Source of the DNA: Verrucomicrobiota bacterium
Lineage (GTDB): Bacteria; Verrucomicrobiota; Kiritimatiellia; SS1-B-03-39; UBA6053
Direction: 5' to 3'
Assembly: GCA_020831635.1 (NCBI GenBank)
Contig: JAFIGC010000010.1
Location: 1 to 64,000 of the forward strand
Length of the DNA stretch: 64,000 bases
Each line of letters starts with the position of its first letter. The stretch's first letter is position 1. The translations under genes and the position numbers were made by a program. This document shows, in pieces, positions 39,683-51,045 of the stretch. The notes under the pieces were generated by a model. The model ran no database searches and had not been told where the DNA came from. It saw only the letters and a list, made by a program, of their open reading frames with translations.

Positions 39683-41227
39683 ATGTCAACGGAATCGAAA
39701 CCCACATATCAGACATATAACGACCAGGCAACGGAACTGGTCGTGGCGGTTGTTGCACCACTCGGGCTAAACAAGCCCGTCGTAATTGACGCGATTATCA
39801 ATGAAGCCAAGCAGTATGGATACCACGCTGAAGTCATAAAAATAAGTGAGTTTCTGGAGCAGTTATATCCATTGGAGAAGTCCACATACCACCTTGATCG
39901 GGTGAAGCACTTGATGGACAAAGGAGACGAAATACGGGAAGAATCGAAAAACAACGCTATTCTTGCGATGTTTGCGGTGTTGGAGATTCAAAAACGCAGA
40001 GAGGAAAATCGATCAGAAAAATGGCAGGAAGGGAAAGTCGTTTGGATTATTGACTCATTGAAACACAGTGAAGAGGTGCTTGAGCTTCGAAAAATTTACT
40101 CGAATGGTTTTTTCCTTGTCGCCACACATGTCGACAGAAATGAAAGGCTAGATTACTTAAAGAGCCGTAATGATTCAGAATCCCCAAAACGTATTGAGGA
40201 TCTTCTGGACAGAGATGAGCGTGGTGGAGTGAACCATGGACAACAAACGGAAAAAGTTTTCCAGTACGCGGATTATTTCATCCGATACACCGGGGTCTTG
40301 GCAAAGACCTCGGAAAGCGTAAAGCGCTTTTTCGGACTGGTTTTCGGCCACCCATATATTAACTCCACATTCAATGAGCATGCCATGTATCTGGCGTATG
40401 TAGCCGGGATGCGGAGCGGAGATTTATCGCGCCAGGTAGGTGCCGTGGTCACGAAAGATCTGGAGATTCTTGGGCTGGGTGCGAATGAGTGTCCGCGTTT
40501 TGGCGGCGGTTTGTATTGGCCATTGTATGACGAGGAATCGCATGCCATTCAAGAGGCTGAGAAAGGGAAGGACCATGTAAGGGGCGAGGATTTCAACCAT
40601 ACGGAACGGCTAAGGATGTATGATGAGATATGTGATGCTTTGGGACTTCCCCAGAATGAGGAAAACCATAAGCACCTTGATTCCACAGGCCTTTCGGCCT
40701 TAACGGAGTACGGGCGAATGGTACATGCCGAGATGGAAGCCTTGATGAGCTGTGCTCGCAAGGGTGTTTCTCCTGTCGGTGGCACACTTTTCTGCACCAC
40801 CTTTCCATGCCACAACTGCGCCAAACACATCGTCGCTGCGGGAATCCGGAAAATTTTCTACATTGAGCCCTATCCCAAAAGCAAAGCCGTCGAAATGCAT
40901 GATGATTCTTTAAGTCTCGACGATTCAAATTCCGACAATAAAGTTGTCTTTGAGCCTTATGTCGGGGTTGGTCCCTGCAGATATGTGGACCTTTTTTCGA
41001 TGGGACTTGGGATTGGGGTGCCGATTCAGCGGAAAGACAAGAAAACAGGTAAAACGATCGACTTTGTCAAAAAATATGCACTTCCCCGACTACGGATGCT
41101 ACCAGGAAGCCTGAGCGAGGTGGAAAAACTTGTGGTTGCAAAACTTAAGGAGTATGATTTAGGAAGCTCGAACCGAAACCCGAACGGAGAAAGACATGAC
41201 ACAGGAACGAAAGACGCAGCCGAGTAA
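39683..41227 (+). CDS. DcdV/AvcD-like anti-phage dCTP deaminase
   Basis: A 514-aa protein with an N-terminal P-loop-kinase-like domain (TELVVAVVAPLGLNKPVVID) and a C-terminal zinc cytidine/dCMP-deaminase domain: GMVHAEMEALMSC-type HAE near residue 348 and TFPCHNCAKHIVAAG (PCxxC) near residue 375. This architecture is that of the AvcD/DcdV family, which depletes dCTP and halts phage replication. The Walker A-like loop is degenerate: Gly and Lys are there, but not the usual GSGKS/T. A CGGCGGAG ribosome-binding site precedes the start. Known AvcD systems use a neighbouring inhibitory RNA; only 26 bases separate this gene from the one before, so any such RNA would overlap other sequence. Confidence 0.82.
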   Translation: MSTESKPTYQTYNDQATELVVAVVAPLGLNKPVVIDAIINEAKQYGYHAEVIKISEFLEQLYPLEKSTYHLDRVKHLMDKGDEIREESKNNAILAMFAVLEIQKRREENRSEKWQEGKVVWIIDSLKHSEEVLELRKIYSNGFFLVATHVDRNERLDYLKSRNDSESPKRIEDLLDRDERGGVNHGQQTEKVFQYADYFIRYTGVLAKTSESVKRFFGLVFGHPYINSTFNEHAMYLAYVAGMRSGDLSRQVGAVVTKDLEILGLGANECPRFGGGLYWPLYDEESHAIQEAEKGKDHVRGEDFNHTERLRMYDEICDALGLPQNEENHKHLDSTGLSALTEYGRMVHAEMEALMSCARKGVSPVGGTLFCTTFPCHNCAKHIVAAGIRKIFYIEPYPKSKAVEMHDDSLSLDDSNSDNKVVFEPYVGVGPCRYVDLFSMGLGIGVPIQRKDKKTGKTIDFVKKYALPRLRMLPGSLSEVEKLVVAKLKEYDLGSSNRNPNGERHDTGTKDAAE

Positions 41228-41746: not shown

Positions 41747-42958
41747 ATGAACTGGCAAACCCACCATTCCTACCGCGTCTTCGACGAGTTCCTCCAGCGT
41801 TTCGTGCTGGAGCGGAAGAGCTACATCACCACCCATGAGCAGGTGTTGGATTTCGATACGGCTTTTGCAGACATACACCAACGCTTTGTGGAAGGTGCGG
41901 ATGAGTCGGATGACAAATTTGACGAGAAGGTGGAGCGTCAGTTCGCTGACGCGGCGGAGAACACCCGGATTGTGTTCACGAATGTGGAATATCTGTGGTG
42001 TCTGCCTTCAAGCAACATCGGCGGGCCACGGAAGCAACACTATGCGACCCGGTGGTTTCCACCGCAATGGGTTCAACAGGGTGGAGAGTATTTTTTCGGG
42101 GATGATCACGGGATCGGCAACACCGGGCAGTGGTACCAGCAAAACAAATATTTCGAGATTCGGGCCCTGCTCCGCATTCTCCAGCTGGTGACCCGGGACA
42201 GTTCCCTCGATTCAGTCTCCAAACTCAAGGAACGGATCGCGCAGATCTGCTATGATTCGATTTATAGCGGGGTCGCGGATTCGGATCCTTTTTCGCCCAT
42301 CCCCAACAAATGCAGCGCCCATTCGGTTTTCCTGCATCTTTCCGCTCCTGACACGTATGAATCCATCAGCGCGGACAACCACAAAGACCGCATCGTGGGG
42401 GTGTTCGGGCATTTGCTCGATCCCGGCATCACCTGCCGTGAGCAGAAACTGCGCGAGCTGAGGAGGATTCTGTACAATGAGTATGCCTTGGATGCTGACC
42501 CGGAGCGGAAGGAGCGATGGTTCTTCTACATGGAGGACATCAAGCGCGAATGGATCGGGGCAAGAAGCGTACGCTCCCAGAAAAAAAACTCCATTCTGTC
42601 CGAAATCCTCCAGGAAGAACTCGCGGGGGAGTTGGAGGGCGGAAAAGAGGCGTTTTCAGGGTACCGGATTCGCCGCAATGGCAAACTGGTTCAGCAGGTC
42701 AAGGTACGGGACCAACACACCTGCCGGGCCTGTGGCTTTCATTTCAAAAATCTGATCGTACACGTTCACCATCTAGACCCCATTTCTGAACGGAAAGGCG
42801 AGTCGGAAACCAAACAGGAAGACCTGATCACTCTCTGCCCCAACTGCCACTACCTGGCGCACTACCTCCTGCGCCAGGAGAATAACGACCGTTACAAACT
42901 GCTTCTTCCTTTGCTTTCTTCATTGAAGAAAATTCATGCAAAACACCATCCACTTTGA
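41747..42958 (+). CDS. HNH endonuclease-domain protein, probable defence nuclease
   Basis: A 403-aa protein. The C-terminal HNH nuclease domain is clear: zinc-binding CRACGFHF near residue 324, catalytic HVHHLDPIS near residue 340, and LCPNCHYLAHYL near residue 364. The N-terminal about 320 residues contain a conserved-looking segment ENTRIVFTNVEYLWCLPSSN near residue 75 but no domain I can name with confidence; it may recognise DNA or sense infection. The gene is in a defence island between a dCTP deaminase and an AbiE pair, and its 3' end overlaps the next gene by 23 bases. A restriction-like role is inferred. Confidence 0.78.
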   Translation: MNWQTHHSYRVFDEFLQRFVLERKSYITTHEQVLDFDTAFADIHQRFVEGADESDDKFDEKVERQFADAAENTRIVFTNVEYLWCLPSSNIGGPRKQHYATRWFPPQWVQQGGEYFFGDDHGIGNTGQWYQQNKYFEIRALLRILQLVTRDSSLDSVSKLKERIAQICYDSIYSGVADSDPFSPIPNKCSAHSVFLHLSAPDTYESISADNHKDRIVGVFGHLLDPGITCREQKLRELRRILYNEYALDADPERKERWFFYMEDIKREWIGARSVRSQKKNSILSEILQEELAGELEGGKEAFSGYRIRRNGKLVQQVKVRDQHTCRACGFHFKNLIVHVHHLDPISERKGESETKQEDLITLCPNCHYLAHYLLRQENNDRYKLLLPLLSSLKKIHAKHHPL

Positions 42959-43721
42959 GACTAAAGAGGGCATCCTCGAGAATATTTCAAAACTCACCGG
43001 AGTAAATGCAGGTGATATTGAAGCCTTCATCTCATCCATGGCGGATTGGTCAAAATCAGAGCGTGATTCACGCAGGGTTTGGCCGATGTTTCAGGCTGCG
43101 TTTGGGTGTGCTCCTACAATTCAACGTGCAGTTTGGTACCATGGCTGCCGGTGTCTGCCTGGAACCACCTTTGAGGATGGACTTTTGCCCAACGTACAAG
43201 CTTTATCTGAAATTTGGCACCAGCTCTGGAAGGTGATTGGGAAAGCGGTTAGTTCTTCAAGCCCAGAGGATTTGCGTTCCGTATTCGAAGCGCATACCGC
43301 TTCTATGACCGGGGGAGGTTATCACCAGCGCTTGATGGATTCGCGCCAGAATGGGCCATGGGGGAAACTGGTCAGGGAGGACTGGTTTCTCGAAGGTTCA
43401 GACAGTGATCATTATTTAAAATCAGGTCCGGAACTTGTTTGCTTTCCCCTGCGTCATTTTTCTCCGGATGGAGAATTGGAAAAACTTTATCTTAAAAGCA
43501 CTCAGGCATGTCTCGTTCATTTTAGTGCGCCGTGCAGTGATCCTCAGTTATTGGGCCATGGGTTGAATTTTCTTCGGGACACTCGGTTCTGTGAGCATCC
43601 AATCGAATATGTGGGCTATTATGGTTTGGAATCTATGGAAGGAAAGATTGTTCCGTTCAAGGATATCCTCAATGTCGAATTTTTATCTCCGGATTGTGGC
43701 TATAACGAAAATTTGACTTGA
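42936..43721 (+). CDS. Unknown protein coupled to the HNH nuclease
   Basis: A 261-aa soluble protein beginning MQNTIHFETKEGILENISKL. It has no signal peptide, TM segment or recognisable motif; tryptophan- and cysteine-containing blocks such as VWYHGCRCLPGTTFEDGLLP and SDHYLKSGPELVCFPLRHF stand out. The start lies inside the HNH gene (23-base overlap), so the two proteins are likely made together and may form one defence module. GC is lower than in the housekeeping operons. Possible roles as regulator, immunity protein or second effector cannot be separated by reading. Confidence 0.65.
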   Translation: MQNTIHFETKEGILENISKLTGVNAGDIEAFISSMADWSKSERDSRRVWPMFQAAFGCAPTIQRAVWYHGCRCLPGTTFEDGLLPNVQALSEIWHQLWKVIGKAVSSSSPEDLRSVFEAHTASMTGGGYHQRLMDSRQNGPWGKLVREDWFLEGSDSDHYLKSGPELVCFPLRHFSPDGELEKLYLKSTQACLVHFSAPCSDPQLLGHGLNFLRDTRFCEHPIEYVGYYGLESMEGKIVPFKDILNVEFLSPDCGYNENLT

Positions 43722-43975: not shown

Positions 43976-44821
43976 TCAAGAACCGCGCAGATCCGGCAGC
44001 ACGTCCTTCACCAGAAACCGGGCGTGTTCGAGGTAGTTTTCGAAGGGGTAGAGGGTTCCCCGCACGTTTTCGCGGACTTCGTTAAAACCGCGGGCGAAGG
44101 TATCTGTGAAGTTCTCGTCCCAGAGGGCGTTCAGGAAGTTTAAGGGAACCTCTTTGGCGTCGAAGACTTTATCGATTTCGTTCCGGCAGGTTGCGAAAAA
44201 TGCCTCGTCGGCCTCCTGAGTGAGCTGCAGGATGTCATAGAAATCCCGGGCTCGGTTTTTGTCTTTGCTGTAGGGGTAGTCGGGGTGCTGCTGGCAGATG
44301 GCGCGGAGTTTTTCCAGCACCAGCAGTTCGCGGGTGTAGCCATGGATTTCCACTCCGGCGATGACTTTGCTCCGCCCGGTTCCGCAATATTCATGATCAC
44401 TGATGTCGAGGGGAATGGTGGATTTTTTCGTGCCGGCCGGCACCAGCGCATTGCGTCGCCGGGTTTCCAGGGGTTCTTTCCGAAACGAAATGGGACAGAG
44501 TTTGAATTCGCAGACCCAACCGCCCCACCAGTCCGGCTTGTCGGGGTGGGCTTTTTGGGGTTTTCTGCGATGTTTGAAATCGAGGATGTCGTAGTCATGA
44601 GGTTCGAAACGGCGGATCAGGCTCTGGTGGATTATCCCGAAAAATTCATCAGGATCCTCCAGAGGATGGTCGAGGGAGAAGTCGGCATCCATGGAGAGGC
44701 GGGCGGTGAGGTCGTCCAGCAGCCGCAGGGCCGCACCTCCTTTAAGGTATATGTGCTCGGCCAGTTCCGCGTCGCCATAAACGGCCAGGACGGCTTCGGT
44801 AATCACCTGCTCAATCCGCAT
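43976..44821 (-). CDS. abiEii: AbiEii-type nucleotidyltransferase toxin
   Basis: A 281-aa nucleotidyltransferase-fold toxin of type IV/AbiE toxin-antitoxin systems. The family motif is IYLKGGAALRLLDDLTARLS followed by MDADFSL near residues 24-50 (the GG/S and DxD-type positions that bind nucleotide and metal). RARDFYDILQL near residue 200 is typical of the C-terminal half. AbiEii enzymes nucleotidylate tRNA ends and halt growth during phage infection. The gene overlaps its antitoxin gene by 11 bases and is transcribed opposite to the surrounding island. Confidence 0.85.
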   Translation of the reverse strand: MRIEQVITEAVLAVYGDAELAEHIYLKGGAALRLLDDLTARLSMDADFSLDHPLEDPDEFFGIIHQSLIRRFEPHDYDILDFKHRRKPQKAHPDKPDWWGGWVCEFKLCPISFRKEPLETRRRNALVPAGTKKSTIPLDISDHEYCGTGRSKVIAGVEIHGYTRELLVLEKLRAICQQHPDYPYSKDKNRARDFYDILQLTQEADEAFFATCRNEIDKVFDAKEVPLNFLNALWDENFTDTFARGFNEVRENVRGTLYPFENYLEHARFLVKDVLPDLRGS

Positions 44822-45506
44822 TCACCAGACCCCGGGGATAGTGCACCTGCCATTTGGGATCATAGGGCCATGACGATTTCGCGTCTTTATCGACAAAAAA
44901 ACGGTTGGTGGGGGGGAAGTGTTCCCGCCACCGGGCTGCCGATTCCTCTTGTCCGCTGTGGTCGAGAAAAAAACCCAGTGTCTGATGATATGGATAGAGA
45001 AAATCCAGTTCCCTGTAGTGTTCGATCAGTTTCAGGATGTCGAGCTGTTCGACAGCCTCCTCGAACAGACCGGGCAACGTTGTAATCCCCCCATTGTAGT
45101 GCGGGGCCACCACCGCATCGATCAAGCAGCGCTCCAGATTGGTGATCCGGGAACCTTGAGGAAATCCAGAATCGTCGGAAGGAACGGAAACGACTCCAAT
45201 TTCATCATGCAGTCTTCCCGCGATGAATACGATGGTGCCCCCACCAAGATTCTCAGTGTCACCACTTCGCCGATGAGGTTTCAGGAACTGGGTTCGGATT
45301 TGTAAATCACTGAGTCGATCAGGTCTTGATCGGTTTGAACCCACATCTCGTTTTCGGATGTAGACACGGTTGGGTACCTGGTTGGTCAGTCCGTGGTATA
45401 CCACGGATGTGTAATGACAGAAATGGCCACTGGGCACACGATCATAAGCCTTCTTCAAAAGGCTGCGTATATCGACGACCTCGGTATTTAAGGTGGGGAA
45501 TTTCAT
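44811..45506 (-). CDS. abiEi: AbiEi-type antitoxin
   Basis: A 231-aa antitoxin. The N-terminal region (VDIRSLLKKAYDRVP, GHFCHYTSVVYHGLTNQVPN, RVYIRKR) fits the AbiEi winged-helix/C-terminal pattern, and the block RITNLERCLIDAVVAPHYNG is typical of AbiEi proteins. Its 3' end overlaps abiEii by 11 bases. Known AbiEi proteins repress their own operon by binding inverted repeats upstream. Here a near-perfect 46-bp palindrome starts only seven bases before the ATG, and a 58-bp perfect palindrome with the same core lies about 107 bases further. No good ribosome-binding site is seen. Confidence 0.78.
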   Translation of the reverse strand: MKFPTLNTEVVDIRSLLKKAYDRVPSGHFCHYTSVVYHGLTNQVPNRVYIRKRDVGSNRSRPDRLSDLQIRTQFLKPHRRSGDTENLGGGTIVFIAGRLHDEIGVVSVPSDDSGFPQGSRITNLERCLIDAVVAPHYNGGITTLPGLFEEAVEQLDILKLIEHYRELDFLYPYHQTLGFFLDHSGQEESAARWREHFPPTNRFFVDKDAKSSWPYDPKWQVHYPRGLVNAD

Positions 45507-45512
45507 TTTTAT

Positions 45513-45558
45513 AGCTCTAACATGATAACCGTGCTAGCACGGTTATCATGTTCGAGCT
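45513..45558. promoter_or_regulatory. 46-bp palindrome at the abiEi start, probable operator
   Basis: Perfectly self-complementary except for one mismatched pair (45518/45553), centred on CTAG at 45534-45537. Its core AACCGTGCTAGCACGGTT is shared with the palindrome at 45614-45671, but the outer arms differ. It lies seven bases before the abiEi ATG. A possible minus-strand -35 (TTGACT, 45563-45568) is next to it, so a bound protein would block that promoter. Confidence 0.75.
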
Positions 45559-45613
45559 TAAAAGTCAATACCTCGGGATGGTTTTATTTTAGAAAGTCAA
45601 AAGGAATTGATTT

Positions 45614-45671
45614 TCCACATGCCTGGTGTAGGCAACCGTGCTAGCACGGTTGCCTACACCAGGCATGTGGA
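45614..45671. promoter_or_regulatory. 58-bp perfect palindrome with the same core
   Basis: Fully self-complementary across 58 bases, centred on CTAG at 45641-45644, with arms built on CCACATGCCTGGTGTAGG. Its 18-base core is identical to the palindrome at 45513-45558. The centres are 107 bases apart. It ends 73 bases before the AlbA_2 gene, so the pair sits in the divergent control region of both units. Confidence 0.8.
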
Positions 45672-45744: not shown

Positions 45745-46983
45745 ATGGATCTTATGATATTGGAAAGAAAATCGATCATCATCATGCCTTTAACTGTAGA
45801 AAACCTAAAACAACTACTGAGCCACCCTGAGGCTGACCGGGTGGAGTGCACACGATCCACCACGGACAAAGACAAATTCCGAGAGGCGATTTGTTCGTTT
45901 TCCAATGACATGGCGGGACATGGGCTCCCGGGGTATTTGTTGGTGGGTGTGGATGAGAAGGATCCTTTATTTCGCTTGCAGGCCACAGACGATTTGCTGA
46001 AACAATTCGTCGGATATCGTTCCGACGGCGCGATACTCCCTTTGCCGGTCATGACGGTTTACACCCTGCCGCATCCGGACGGCGGTGGGGATGTGATTGT
46101 GGTGGAAGTCACCCCGCACGACCTCCCCCCGGTTCGATACAAAGGCCGAATTCACATCAGGGTCGGACCGCGAAAAGACACCGCCAGCGAAGCGGAGGAG
46201 CGCGTGCTCATGGAACGACGCAGCTCCAATTTCCCCACTTTCGATGCGACCCCGTGCCCGGAAGGAGAACTGTCTCGGTTGGATTTGGATATGTTTCAGC
46301 ACACCTATCGTCCGGCGGCGATTGACCGGGAGGTGATCGAAGAGAATCATCGAGAGGTGGTGGAGCAACTTGCCGCTTTACGCTTTTACAACCTGAGACG
46401 GTCTTGTCCTACCAACGCCGGGATGCTGGTTTTCGGCGACGATCCATTGGATATTTTCCCGGGGGCCAAAATTCAGTTTGTTCAGTTCGACGGACCGGAT
46501 TTATCCGACGAGCCTTTGGCCGAAAAACTTTTCACGGGGAACCTTCTGACTCAGTTGCGCGAACTGGAGGTATTTCTCTCGGGAAGATTCTCCCAAAAGC
46601 CGGTCACGGCGGGAGCGCTGCGGGAAAAGGCGGTGTTCGACTGGCATCCGGACGCGGTGAGGGAATTGTTGATGAACGCAGTCCTCCACCGGAACTATGA
46701 ATCCACCAGCCCCATTCGACTCTACCAATTTTCGGACCGTATCGAAATCCAAAATCCGGGTGGGTTGTATGGCGACGCGTCACCCGAGAATTTCCCCAGG
46801 GTCAATGCCTACCGCAACCCCATTCTGGCCGAGGTGATGAAAGTGCTGGGATACATCAACCATTTCGGACGTGGTATCGCCCGGGCCAGGCGCGTATGCC
46901 AGGAAAATGGTAGTTCCGAGCCCGGGTTTGAATTGAAGACAAACCATTTCCTGGCGATTTTACCAAAGCACCCCCAACGATGA
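45745..46983 (+). CDS. AlbA_2 (Schlafen-like) DNA-binding domain protein with ATP-binding C-terminus
   Basis: A 412-aa protein of the type annotated as ATP-dependent DNA helicase-like or transcriptional regulator. The N-terminal AlbA_2 domain has DRVECTRSTTDKDKFREAIC followed by LPGYLLVGVDEKD near residue 60 and RYKGRIHIRVGPRK near residue 132. The C-terminal part (VRELLMNAVLHRNY, FSDRIEIQNPGGLYG, GYINHFGRGIARARRVC) matches the HATPase_c_4-like domain common to this family. The start could be ATG 45745 or 45784; neither has a strong ribosome-binding site. It overlaps the ParA-like gene by four bases and stands beside the two palindromes. The role in the island is unknown. Confidence 0.78.
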   Translation: MDLMILERKSIIIMPLTVENLKQLLSHPEADRVECTRSTTDKDKFREAICSFSNDMAGHGLPGYLLVGVDEKDPLFRLQATDDLLKQFVGYRSDGAILPLPVMTVYTLPHPDGGGDVIVVEVTPHDLPPVRYKGRIHIRVGPRKDTASEAEERVLMERRSSNFPTFDATPCPEGELSRLDLDMFQHTYRPAAIDREVIEENHREVVEQLAALRFYNLRRSCPTNAGMLVFGDDPLDIFPGAKIQFVQFDGPDLSDEPLAEKLFTGNLLTQLRELEVFLSGRFSQKPVTAGALREKAVFDWHPDAVRELLMNAVLHRNYESTSPIRLYQFSDRIEIQNPGGLYGDASPENFPRVNAYRNPILAEVMKVLGYINHFGRGIARARRVCQENGSSEPGFELKTNHFLAILPKHPQR

Positions 46984-47966
46984 AAACGATCGCATTTTTT
47001 AATAACAAAGGCGGGGTGGGGAAAACCACTTTGGTCTACCATTTGGCTTGGATGTTTGCAGGCATGGGACGTCGGGTCCTCGTCGCGGATCTGGATCCAC
47101 AGGCGAACCTGACCTCGATGTTTCTGGCGGAGTCTGAGTTGGAGAAGCTCTGGGACCCGGACCGGGAGGAGCACCCCAGCATTATGGCTCCGTTATCACC
47201 AATGACCCGTGGACTGGGTGACATTGGCGAGACGCCGACCCAACGAATCACAAACGCAATCTGGTTGATTCCGGGGGATTTGGCTTTGTCGAATTTCGAA
47301 TCGAACCTTTCCGAAGCTTGGGGAAAGTGTTTGGATGGTCAGGAACCCGCCTTTCGAACCACCAGTGCATTTCACCGGGTGATGTTGGACGCTTACCAAA
47401 AAACGGATGCGGATGTGGTGCTTATTGACGTGGGTCCGAACTTCGGCGCGATCAATCGTGCCGCGCTGATCTGTGCGGAATCGGTGGTGGTGCCTCTCGC
47501 CCCGGATTTATTTTCCATTCAGGGGCTTCGCAACTTGGGCCCGACCTTGAAAGACTGGCGAACTCAGTGGAAAAGACGGTTTGCGGAGAATCCCGCTATA
47601 GACCTTCCCTTGCCTAAAGGAATGATGAACCCGGTGGGCTACACGGTGATCCAGTTCGGGATTCGAGACAGTCGCCCCGTCAAAGCCTACCAGAAATGGT
47701 CCAATCGTATTCCTTCGACATTTGACTCATTGGTCTTGGAAAATCCGAAGGAAGATATTTCAAAAACCTACGAAAATGATCCGAATTGCCTGGGTATGCT
47801 CAAGCACTATCGCAGTCTGATGCCCATGGCCATGGAAGCGAGAAAGCCCATTTTCAATTTGAGTGCTGCTGACGGAGCCATTGGTGCCCATGCGAAAAGT
47901 GTCCAAGATTGTAAAGATGACTTTAAAAACTTGGCAAAAAATATTCTTGCGAAATACAAATTTTAA
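46980..47966 (+). CDS. ParA/MinD-type ATPase
   Basis: A 328-aa deviant Walker ATPase: IAFFNNKGGVGKTTLVYHLA (deviant Walker A, both lysines) at the N-terminus, VLVADLDPQANLTSM (A'), and VVLIDVGPNFGAINRAAL (Walker B region). Usual ParA proteins partner with ParB and a centromere; no parB, parS or replication gene is nearby. It is coupled to the AlbA_2 gene (ATGA overlap) and lies 38 bases before hsdR. The pair may regulate or accompany restriction, or be a separate defence element. Confidence 0.82.
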   Translation: MKTIAFFNNKGGVGKTTLVYHLAWMFAGMGRRVLVADLDPQANLTSMFLAESELEKLWDPDREEHPSIMAPLSPMTRGLGDIGETPTQRITNAIWLIPGDLALSNFESNLSEAWGKCLDGQEPAFRTTSAFHRVMLDAYQKTDADVVLIDVGPNFGAINRAALICAESVVVPLAPDLFSIQGLRNLGPTLKDWRTQWKRRFAENPAIDLPLPKGMMNPVGYTVIQFGIRDSRPVKAYQKWSNRIPSTFDSLVLENPKEDISKTYENDPNCLGMLKHYRSLMPMAMEARKPIFNLSAADGAIGAHAKSVQDCKDDFKNLAKNILAKYKF

Positions 47967-48003: not shown

Positions 48004-51000
48004 ATGAGCCCGTCGGACACATCTGAAAAAGCATTGGAAACCCACATTGAATCGTTTTTGACCGGTTTGGTGGTGGCGACGACTGGACAGGCGGGCGACG
48101 CGAAGGAGGAAGGGCAATTCCGGACGCGGGGCAAAGGCGGGTATGAGAAGGGTGATCCGAAAAATTTCAATGCGGAGTTCGCGCTGGACGAGGCGATGTT
48201 CTGGCGGTTCCTGGAGTCCACCCAAGCGGAAGAATGCAAAAAACTGCACTACAAGCCGGATTGGAAACAGCAGGTGGTGGAGCGGCTGCATCGAAAACTG
48301 AAAAAAGATGGTCTGCTGGCGGTTTTGAAACGGGGCTTGGAGGTGGACGCGGCGCATTTTACCCTGCTGTATCGACTGCCATACAATCTACTGAACCCCG
48401 AGGTGGAGGCGCGGTTCGAGTCGAACGTGTTTTCGGTTACCCGTCAGGTGGCGTTCTCGTCCGACACCCGGCAGACGGTGGACATGGTGCTTTTCATCAA
48501 TGGTTTGCCGGTGGTGACGATGGAGTTGAAAAATCCGTGGACGGGACAAACGGTGCATCACGCCCGCAGGCAATATCGGGAGGACCGGGATCCGAGGGAA
48601 ACGCTTTTCCAGTTTCGGCGTTGTCTGGTGCATTTCGCGGTAGACCCGGACGAGGTGTGGATGACCACCCGCCTGGAGGGAGACAAGACCCACTTTCTTC
48701 CCTTCAACCAGGGGTACAAGCACGGGAAAGGGAATCCGCCCAACCCCGCAGGTCACCGCACCGCCTATCTTTGGAAAGAGGTGCTGATCCGCAAGAGTCT
48801 CTGCAACATCATCGAGCATTTCGCCAAATACACGGAGGTCAAAGACAAGAAGTCGGGCAAGGTGAAGCGGACCCTGTACTTTCCCCGGTATCACCAATTG
48901 CAGGTGGTGCGCACCCTGTTGGAGGACGTGAAGTCCAAGGGGCCGGGACACCGATACTTGGTGCAGCATTCGGCGGGATCGGGCAAATCGCACTCCATCA
49001 CGTGGCTGGCGTATCAGTTGGTGGAGCTGTTCGACCTGCGGGGCGAGCAGAATCTGTTCGATTCGGTGGTGGTGGTGACGGATCGTCGGGTGCTGGACCG
49101 TCAGATCGACCGGAATATCCGCCAGTTCGCGGAGGTGAAAAATCTGCTGGCACATGCGGAGAGTTCCTCGGAACTGCGGGCGCATCTGGAGAACGGTAAA
49201 AAGCTGATCACCACCACCATTCAGAAATTTCCGTTCATCGTGGACGGTATCGCGGACATGAGTGGCAGCACCTTTGGCGTGATCATCGACGAGGCGCATT
49301 CTTCGCAGGGAGGACAGTCGGCCGACAAGCTCAACATGTCCCTGGGCGCTTCGGAAGCCGAAGAGGAAGCCGAGGACATGGAGGAGCTGATCCTGCAGGC
49401 GATGGAACGGCGCAGAATGGGGAAGAACGCCTCTTTCTTCGCGTTCACCGCCACGCCAAAGGCAGCCACCCTGGAAAAATTCGGTGCCCGCACCGCAGAC
49501 GGCAGGTTTGTGCCGTTTCACTTGTATTCCATGAAACAGGCCATCGAGGAGGACTTCATTCTGGATGTCCTGGCCAATTACACCACTTACAAAAGCTATT
49601 ACGAAGTCCGGAAATCGGTGGAGGATAATCCCCAATTTCAGACGGCGCGGGCGCAAAAGAAATTGCGGAGCTTCGTGGAGGGCGATCAGCAGACCATCGA
49701 CGCGAAGGCCTCGATCATGATCGACCATTTTCTGCTCAAGGTTGTGGCCGCGAAAAAGCTGAAGGGACAGGCCCGGGGCATGGTGGTGACCCGAAACATT
49801 GAAAGCGCGATTCGGTATTACCAGGCCATCCAGCGTTTATTGAAAGAACAAGGAGCGCGGTTCCAAGCGATTGTGGCGTTTTCTGGCTCGAAAACGGTGG
49901 ATGGGATCGAGCACACGGAGGAGTCCATGAACGGATTTCCCTCCAAAGACCTTACGGAGAGGTTCGCGCAACCCTGTACGGCGGAGGATCCGGGCTATCG
50001 TTTGCTGGTGGTGGCCAATAAATTCCTTACCGGGTTCGATGAACCCTTGCTGCACAGCATGTACGTGGACAAGCGGTTGCAGGGCGTACAGGCCGTGCAG
50101 GCGCTTTCCCGGCTGAACCGCTGCAACGAAGCCATGGGCAAGCGGGACACGTTTATCCTGGATTTTTACAACAGCGCGTCGGAAATCCAGAAGGCCTTCG
50201 ATCCGTTTTACACCGCCACCTCCCTGTCCGAACCCACGGACGTGAATGTGCTGCACGATCTCCGGGAAGCCTTGGAGGAAGTCCAAGTGTATACGCAGGA
50301 GGATCTGGATCGATTCAACAGCCTGTTTTTCAAAGGGGAGGATGCCGAGAAATTGCATCCGATCATCGACGGGGCGGTGGCCCGATTCGATTTGTTGGAC
50401 GAAGAGCCCCTGAAAATCGATTTTAAAATCAAAGCCAAGCAGTTCGTGAAGTTATATGGTCAACTGGCCTGTATCATTCCCTTCCTCCAGGTGGAATGGG
50501 AAAAGCTTTTCTGGTTTCTGAAGTTTCTGATCCCGAAACTGCACGTCAACGATCCGGACGTGGACGAGTTGAACGGCTTGCTGGAAAGCGTGGACCTCTC
50601 CACCTACGGGCTCGAACGGGTGCAGTTGAACCAGCCCATTCCTTTGGATGACGGAGAGACGAGTGTGGATCCCGTGAATCCGAACATGCGCGGCTACCAT
50701 GAGGAACCGGAGGATGAATCCCCGCTGGATGAGATTATCCGGGCGTTTAATGAAAGATGGTTCTCCGCTTGGGACGCCACGCCCGAGGAACAGCGGATCA
50801 AACTGATCAACATTCTGCGGCATGTGAAAAAAAGCGCGAAATACGACGCTCAGGTCGTGAACAACCCTGATCAGCAGAACCGGCGCATCGCACTCGAATC
50901 CCTCATTGGAGAGGCGATCAACCGGGAGCGGCGCCGGGAATTGGATCTCTACAAACTCTATGCCGGAGATGCGGAATTCAAAAAAGCCTTGAACGAAAGC

Positions 51001-51045
51001 ATCATGCGCATCCTGGCGCTGGAGGTAGAGGAACCTCCGGCATAG
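48004..51045 (+). CDS. hsdR: Type I restriction endonuclease subunit
   Basis: A 1013-aa restriction and translocase subunit. The N-terminal nuclease domain shows VDMVLFINGLPVVTMELKN near residue 160 (PD-(D/E)xK Asp and ExK-like end). The SF2 helicase motor has HSAGSGKSHSITW (motif I, near residue 322), VVVVTDRRVLDRQID, IIDEAHSSQGG (motif II, near residue 427), FAFTATPK (motif III), and QALSRLNRC near residue 698. The C-terminus interacts with the methyltransferase. It lies 38 bases after the ParA gene and over 8 kb from hsdS, an unusual separation filled by other defence genes. Confidence 0.94.
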   Translation: MSPSDTSEKALETHIESFLTGLVVATTGQAGDAKEEGQFRTRGKGGYEKGDPKNFNAEFALDEAMFWRFLESTQAEECKKLHYKPDWKQQVVERLHRKLKKDGLLAVLKRGLEVDAAHFTLLYRLPYNLLNPEVEARFESNVFSVTRQVAFSSDTRQTVDMVLFINGLPVVTMELKNPWTGQTVHHARRQYREDRDPRETLFQFRRCLVHFAVDPDEVWMTTRLEGDKTHFLPFNQGYKHGKGNPPNPAGHRTAYLWKEVLIRKSLCNIIEHFAKYTEVKDKKSGKVKRTLYFPRYHQLQVVRTLLEDVKSKGPGHRYLVQHSAGSGKSHSITWLAYQLVELFDLRGEQNLFDSVVVVTDRRVLDRQIDRNIRQFAEVKNLLAHAESSSELRAHLENGKKLITTTIQKFPFIVDGIADMSGSTFGVIIDEAHSSQGGQSADKLNMSLGASEAEEEAEDMEELILQAMERRRMGKNASFFAFTATPKAATLEKFGARTADGRFVPFHLYSMKQAIEEDFILDVLANYTTYKSYYEVRKSVEDNPQFQTARAQKKLRSFVEGDQQTIDAKASIMIDHFLLKVVAAKKLKGQARGMVVTRNIESAIRYYQAIQRLLKEQGARFQAIVAFSGSKTVDGIEHTEESMNGFPSKDLTERFAQPCTAEDPGYRLLVVANKFLTGFDEPLLHSMYVDKRLQGVQAVQALSRLNRCNEAMGKRDTFILDFYNSASEIQKAFDPFYTATSLSEPTDVNVLHDLREALEEVQVYTQEDLDRFNSLFFKGEDAEKLHPIIDGAVARFDLLDEEPLKIDFKIKAKQFVKLYGQLACIIPFLQVEWEKLFWFLKFLIPKLHVNDPDVDELNGLLESVDLSTYGLERVQLNQPIPLDDGETSVDPVNPNMRGYHEEPEDESPLDEIIRAFNERWFSAWDATPEEQRIKLINILRHVKKSAKYDAQVVNNPDQQNRRIALESLIGEAINRERRRELDLYKLYAGDAEFKKALNESIMRILALEVEEPPA

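Follow-up and report, generated by a model that had tools for sequence, protein, structure and literature searches.

Paired gapless palindromes at an AbiE toxin-antitoxin locus in Verrucomicrobiota: a probable operator pair whose arms drift in sequence and keep their symmetry

The stretch of DNA analysed here (the window; 64 kb of Verrucomicrobiota contig JAFIGC010000010.1) carries on its minus strand two adjacent, overlapping genes of an AbiE system: abiEii (43976-44821), encoding a nucleotidyltransferase toxin of 281 residues (PF08843, DUF1814, 7.6e-18; also AbiEii by PADLOC), and abiEi (44811-45506), encoding an antitoxin of 231 residues that has the C-terminal domain only (PADLOC AbiEi, 1.9e-11). 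On the plus strand lie genes for a protein with SLFN_AlbA_2 and HATPase_c_4 domains (45787-46983, an upstream ATG at 45745 also being possible), a ParA-like ATPase (46980-47966) and the HsdR of a type I restriction system (48004-51045); the first two are neighbours, the SLFN gene standing outside the conserved unit. Several hallmarks of a type IV AbiE system are found together in the window, namely AbiEii beside AbiEi, an AbiEi C-terminal domain, and inverted repeats over the predicted promoter. PF09407 (AbiEi_1) matches weakly in 4 of 8 members of this AbiEi subfamily. Sequence alone barely ties the subfamily to the AbiEi of Streptococcus agalactiae, a PDB profile search reaching the S. agalactiae protein at E 0.3 only; the tie through PADLOC is better. 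Elsewhere in the window, a deaminase-domain protein (39683-41227; PADLOC dCTPase defence model, 5e-150) is encoded between hsdS-like and HNH genes, and at 41747-43721 a gene for an HNH endonuclease (403 residues) overlaps that of a 261-residue protein with no family match; these two may constitute an undescribed pair.

Between the divergent units are two palindromes. P1, proximal to abiEi (45513-45558), has 23-bp arms with one mismatch, the inner 17 bp of each arm being free of it, and lies over the predicted -10 region, start site and leader of abiE. P2, the distal palindrome (45614-45671), has perfect 29-bp arms, the longest among the palindromes of AbiEi subfamily loci, and lies upstream of the SLFN-ParA-hsdR unit. 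Both are gapless (spacer 0), their centres are 107 bp apart, and they share the 18-bp core AACCGTGCTAGCACGGTT (45527-45544 in P1, 45634-45651 in P2). Recomputed coordinates agree with the initial annotation, which had described a 46-bp palindrome with one mismatch and a 58-bp perfect one around the same core. It had also placed the first of these on the start of abiEi; P1 does cover the predicted promoter and leader, but the coding start falls outside it, 6 bp separating P1 from the ATG at 45506. On the other side, 116 bp lie between the end of P2 and the likely SLFN start at 45787, or 74 bp if the upstream ATG is used. When 3 mismatches are allowed, the window contains the core at only two sites (0.01 expected); with up to 2 mismatches, the P1 and P2 copies are the only ones in the 6.0-Mb genome, and a search of viral contigs returned no copy. 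The window holds no other gapless palindromes with arms of at least 11 bp.

Promoter positions given here are predictions from consensus scanning. For abiE, the scan placed an extended -10 (TGA-TAACCG; 45540-45545, minus strand) inside the upstream arm of P1 and, at a 17-bp spacer, a -35 (TTGACT; 45563-45568, minus strand) between P1 and P2. Homologous loci of the sigma70 type likewise have the predicted -10 in the upstream arm of P1 and the -35 just beyond P1, and in these loci abiE transcription should by this prediction start near the P1 centre; predicted abiE promoters include TTGATT-17-TATAAT in Bacillus subtilis (L022) and TTGACA-16-TACAAT in Planococcus (L019). In subfamily loci, the distance from the centre of P1 to the abiEi start is mostly 15-57 bp. 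Towards SLFN, the window has a weak predicted -35 (TTGATT; 45607-45612, plus strand) and a weak predicted -10 (TAGGCA; 45629-45634, plus strand) in an arm of P2. This outward promoter, weak in the window (score 3.1 against a null of 1.6), is strong in relatives: P2 is accompanied by a predicted one in nine loci (L003, L008, L009, L010, L007, L033, L019, L021 and L027), with the predicted -35 between the two palindromes in all nine, as in TTGACA-17-TATAAC of L003 and TTGACA-17-TATAGT of L009. No clear outward promoter was found by the scan in several Bacillota loci. Four palindromes in Paraburkholderia L021 form two back-to-back pairs, each 111 bp apart. P1-P2 distances showed no helical phasing that might be a sign of looping (Rayleigh p 0.2-0.6).

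AbiEi homologues were gathered from GTDB genomes and plasmid records with a single family seed and should not be taken as independent samples. Between -600 and +10 of abiEi, 36 of the 38 subfamily loci have one or more gapless perfect palindromes with an arm of at least 10 bp, as compared to 0.09 loci expected from shuffled sequences. Most loci have two palindromes and some three or four; most are 24-42 bp long with perfect arms of 12-17 bp, and copies of the P2 type sit 50-190 bp further upstream. The hosts belong to the window's own class, Bacteroidota, Bacillota, Burkholderiales and Campylobacterota. Planctomycetota are represented only by one of the two exceptions, L024, which has an imperfect palindrome (17-bp arm, two mismatches); the other is L079, a Streptococcus suis plasmid with broken abiE genes. 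Loci of AbiEi_4 antitoxins, taken as controls, have no upstream palindrome (0 of 30). In 145 kb of locus surroundings, used to gauge background density, 11 of 12 gapless palindromes with arms of at least 11 bp belong to abiE, and a search for relatives in phages and viral contigs gave none.

It had been proposed that the palindromes also belong with the AlbA_2-ParA unit, and this link failed: gene neighbours vary among the 38 subfamily loci, SLFN-ParA is found in the window alone, and loci of 18 SLFN relatives have no palindromes, on which ground SLFN or ParA was rejected as the palindromes' partner. In comparison with L013 and L033, only the window has SLFN_AlbA_2 and ParA genes (45745-47966) between palindromes and hsdR; in G154, a genome of the same genus, hsdR directly adjoins the palindromes, and in G388 just the first hsdR codons are left. 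SLFN-ParA-hsdR is thus a local neighbour. Several observations were made on the side. The only palindrome in the 145 kb that is not of abiE is a perfect 30-bp one, GACTATCACATATAATTATATGTGATAGTC, close to where an rplT-like gene ends (genome G231, L014 8513-8542). The window's own genome (G000) has three more matches of the AbiEi_4 type (contigs C2 and C150); one locus examined, L057, has no upstream palindrome. Within the subfamily, convergent or divergent arrangements of the antitoxin and toxin genes are common (L018, L019, L020, L023, L029 and others), in contrast to the textbook bicistronic operon, and in L074, an Aliarcobacter plasmid, an abiEi-like gene with palindromes has no annotated abiEii adjoining and a HipA family toxin gene on its opposite side.

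At distances 4 and 5 from the centre, copies within one locus are identical; they diverge increasingly outward, yet each copy stays symmetric despite these outer-arm differences. In the least biased count, second sites were located by the exact central 10 bp of P1 only, leaving the arms unused; this sequence recurs upstream in 22 of 32 loci, giving 24 second sites. Their arm positions 6-12 are Watson-Crick paired in 167 of 168 cases. Of the 44 positions at which they are unlike P1, 41 pair in each of the two copies; joining an arm of one copy to an arm of the other would leave only 1 paired. Counted over 59 sites, 350 of 354 cells at arm positions 7-12 hold Watson-Crick pairs and one holds G-T or A-C, this one belonging to the broken locus G154. 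The initial annotation had suggested from two palindromes that the arms vary and stay paired around one core, and had called for a search for covariation in relatives; the suggestion is borne out by these counts. G-U pairs, which a stem in RNA ought to tolerate, are nearly absent, and this argues for a constraint on duplex DNA or on its copying.

Homologous AbiEi proteins have about 290 residues, whereas that of the window has 231, lacking some 60-80 N-terminal residues, and its open frame has room for 9 more only. The first 80 or so residues of homologues follow the order helix-helix-helix-strand-strand, that of a winged helix, in a low-confidence model (pLDDT 37) that is read for order only; this N-terminal DNA-binding domain is absent from the AbiEi of three members of a single genus, those of the window, G154 and G388, in which abiEi starts immediately past P1. 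A full-length AbiEi of the subfamily is encoded, for instance, on the Bacillus subtilis plasmid NZ_CP015223.1. Searching the window's own genome with a profile of the lost region gave no match, a weak negative run with no positive control. Because this region is missing, another protein or a DNA structure has to be assumed as reader of the palindromes in this genus; the palindromes persist in the window and in G388 despite the truncation. In G154, P1 is asymmetric and P2, with hsdR on its outward side, is still perfect, which in this one case points to selection acting on each promoter separately. The abiE locus of G154 is, as read from its genes, decaying: in abiEii the stretch bearing the nucleotidyltransferase motif is gone and a stop interrupts the frame (L013 9640-10340), while hsdR beside P2 has an intact frame. 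In S. suis L079 the genes are fragmented and both palindrome sites are lost. L077 carries an uncorrected P1, and the broken loci L078, L087 and L088 retain their palindromes.

The abiE operator of S. agalactiae was reportedly the subject of Hampton et al. 2018. S. agalactiae AbiEi binds two inverted repeats over the -35, -10 and +1 of abiE and represses it (Dy et al. 2014, PMC3985639). The subfamily loci resemble that operator in having inverted repeats over the abiE promoter; they differ from it in geometry, as the S. agalactiae element is one 23-3-23 repeat with 4 mismatches whose perfect part is the outer 11 bp (PMC3985639), whereas the subfamily palindromes are gapless, usually two, 50-190 bp apart, and have a conserved centre with variable but mirrored outer arms. 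In the window, the spacer is 0 and there are two copies 107 bp apart in place of the 23-3-23 plan. In Mycobacterium tuberculosis, the AbiEi protein Rv2827c binds inverted repeats in its promoter and represses (Beck et al. 2020, PMC7319586). As in the subfamily, the Rv2827c-Rv2826c pair is preceded by two sets of inverted repeats, but the repeats are 23 bp long, separated by 13 bp within a pair and by 4 bp from one pair to the next (PMC7319586), and are not gapless. AbiEi of ICESsuHN105 from S. suis binds the palindromic IR1 and IR2 of its own promoter and represses; the element is of the S. agalactiae type, and long gapless palindromes are not described in the parts of that report consulted (PMC11062541). 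No description of a gapless paired-palindrome abiE operator was found in the open-access library searched. Since position and conservation fit the known AbiE role and geometry does not, the gapless twofold arrangement is, as judged from sequence, a distinct operator type within AbiE.

Together, these findings make it probable that P1 and P2 are a paired operator serving a type IV (AbiE) toxin-antitoxin operon. This reading draws on the occurrence of the palindromes in nearly all subfamily loci and their absence from AbiEi_4 and SLFN loci, on the share of background palindromes that belong to abiE, on promoter overlap, on the paired arms of second sites, on published AbiEi repression through promoter inverted repeats, and on the loss of symmetry in two broken loci (P1 of G154; L079). 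Counted against it are the truncated AbiEi, the weak outward promoter of the window, the palindromes retained in L078, L087 and L088, the lack of helical phasing and the non-independence of the loci. A regulator bound at P1 would block polymerase, P1 overlapping the predicted -10 and start of the abiEi-abiEii promoter. P2 would be a second operator copy, which in several lineages would lie on a promoter firing in the opposite direction, in the window's genus that of hsdR or of SLFN-ParA-hsdR. The palindrome centre would confer locus specificity, and the outer arms would be free in sequence under strict twofold symmetry. In homologous systems the N-terminal winged helix of AbiEi is the probable reader, by analogy with S. 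agalactiae and M. tuberculosis. What the sequences establish is the anatomy of the palindromes, their conservation and symmetry, and their restriction to this AbiEi subfamily; where the promoters lie, that they are repressed and what binds them are inferred. Of the initial proposal, the idea of two operators sharing one core between the divergent units is upheld, though the assignment to AlbA_2-ParA is not.

A process of mutation offers a partial account, for the arms only, that is compatible with an operator. The core would be the operator, and neutral outer arms would stay mirrored through the repair of quasipalindromes by template switching as the DNA replicates, a process known to create and repair inverted repeats (PMC8794818). 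Such copying would yield mirrored, sequence-free arms and now and then an overlong one such as P2; being a mutational process, it leaves the tie to abiE promoters unexplained. It should also outlast the death of the genes, but neither P1 of G154 nor L079 has kept its symmetry (few cases), and P1 of L077 was left uncorrected. That this accounts for the arms is considered possible, if on the improbable side. Less likely is a switch driven by structure, in which negative supercoiling would make the palindromes extrude into DNA cruciforms that block the promoters, or a protein would recognise the extruded form, pairing being selected and outer-arm sequence irrelevant. The arms do vary and remain self-complementary; folded as single DNA strands, P2 and P1 form stable hairpins of -36.1 kcal/mol (z -13.9) and -19.7 kcal/mol (z -8.9); and the genus with no DNA-binding region in its AbiEi still has the palindromes, those of the window being the longest. 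Perfect arms, however, mostly stop at 12-17 bp, resembling a protein footprint, and the core sequence is conserved within a locus, invariant at distances 4 and 5. It is slightly more doubtful still that the AbiE promoters of the subfamily at large are controlled by cruciforms or by readers of the extruded form, with symmetry as the conserved signal and, in the window's genus, independently of AbiEi.

Outer arms acting as hairpins in RNA or DNA were also part of the initial proposal, and the DNA form is the likelier of the two. For RNA hairpins in the abiE and SLFN leaders to act in translation or attenuation is very improbable: P1 does stop 6 bp ahead of the abiEi start, and Bacteroidota promoters, on inspection of the sequence, would transcribe most of P1, but in sigma70-type loci the start predicted near the palindrome centre would leave half of it in the transcript, pairs of the G-U type are nearly absent, and Rfam matches are sub-threshold and mostly to microRNA precursors, as for any perfect hairpin. 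A mobile palindromic element (REP or MITE-like) or a terminator can practically be dismissed, long and perfect as the palindromes are, as the core is not scattered over the genome in the way that the initial annotation had held would speak for a mobile element, having two copies where a dispersed repeat has many, as palindromes recur upstream of abiEi in homologues, and as neither hairpin is followed by a T-run, both lying between two gene starts with no gene end there.

As for what keeps the arms mirrored, a protein with symmetric half-sites fits the sharp limit on arm length, and does not fit the free sequence of copies that a single protein would read; cruciforms would fit that freedom and the persistence in the genus whose AbiEi has no DNA-binding domain; template-switch copying fits the mirrored drift and the overlong P2, and does not fit the decay of symmetry in some broken loci. 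The three may be jointly at work.

In summary, AbiE is a widespread defence and toxin-antitoxin family whose operator has been studied in few species only, and the paired palindromes represent a different operator plan, conserved across several phyla and recognisable from DNA alone, which helps in annotating AbiE loci. They provide a strict case of sequence that drifts while symmetry is kept, and so make it testable why long operators stay palindromic, be it through the needs of a protein, extrusion of DNA, or copying of arms by replication errors; the genus with the truncated AbiEi is a natural experiment on this question.
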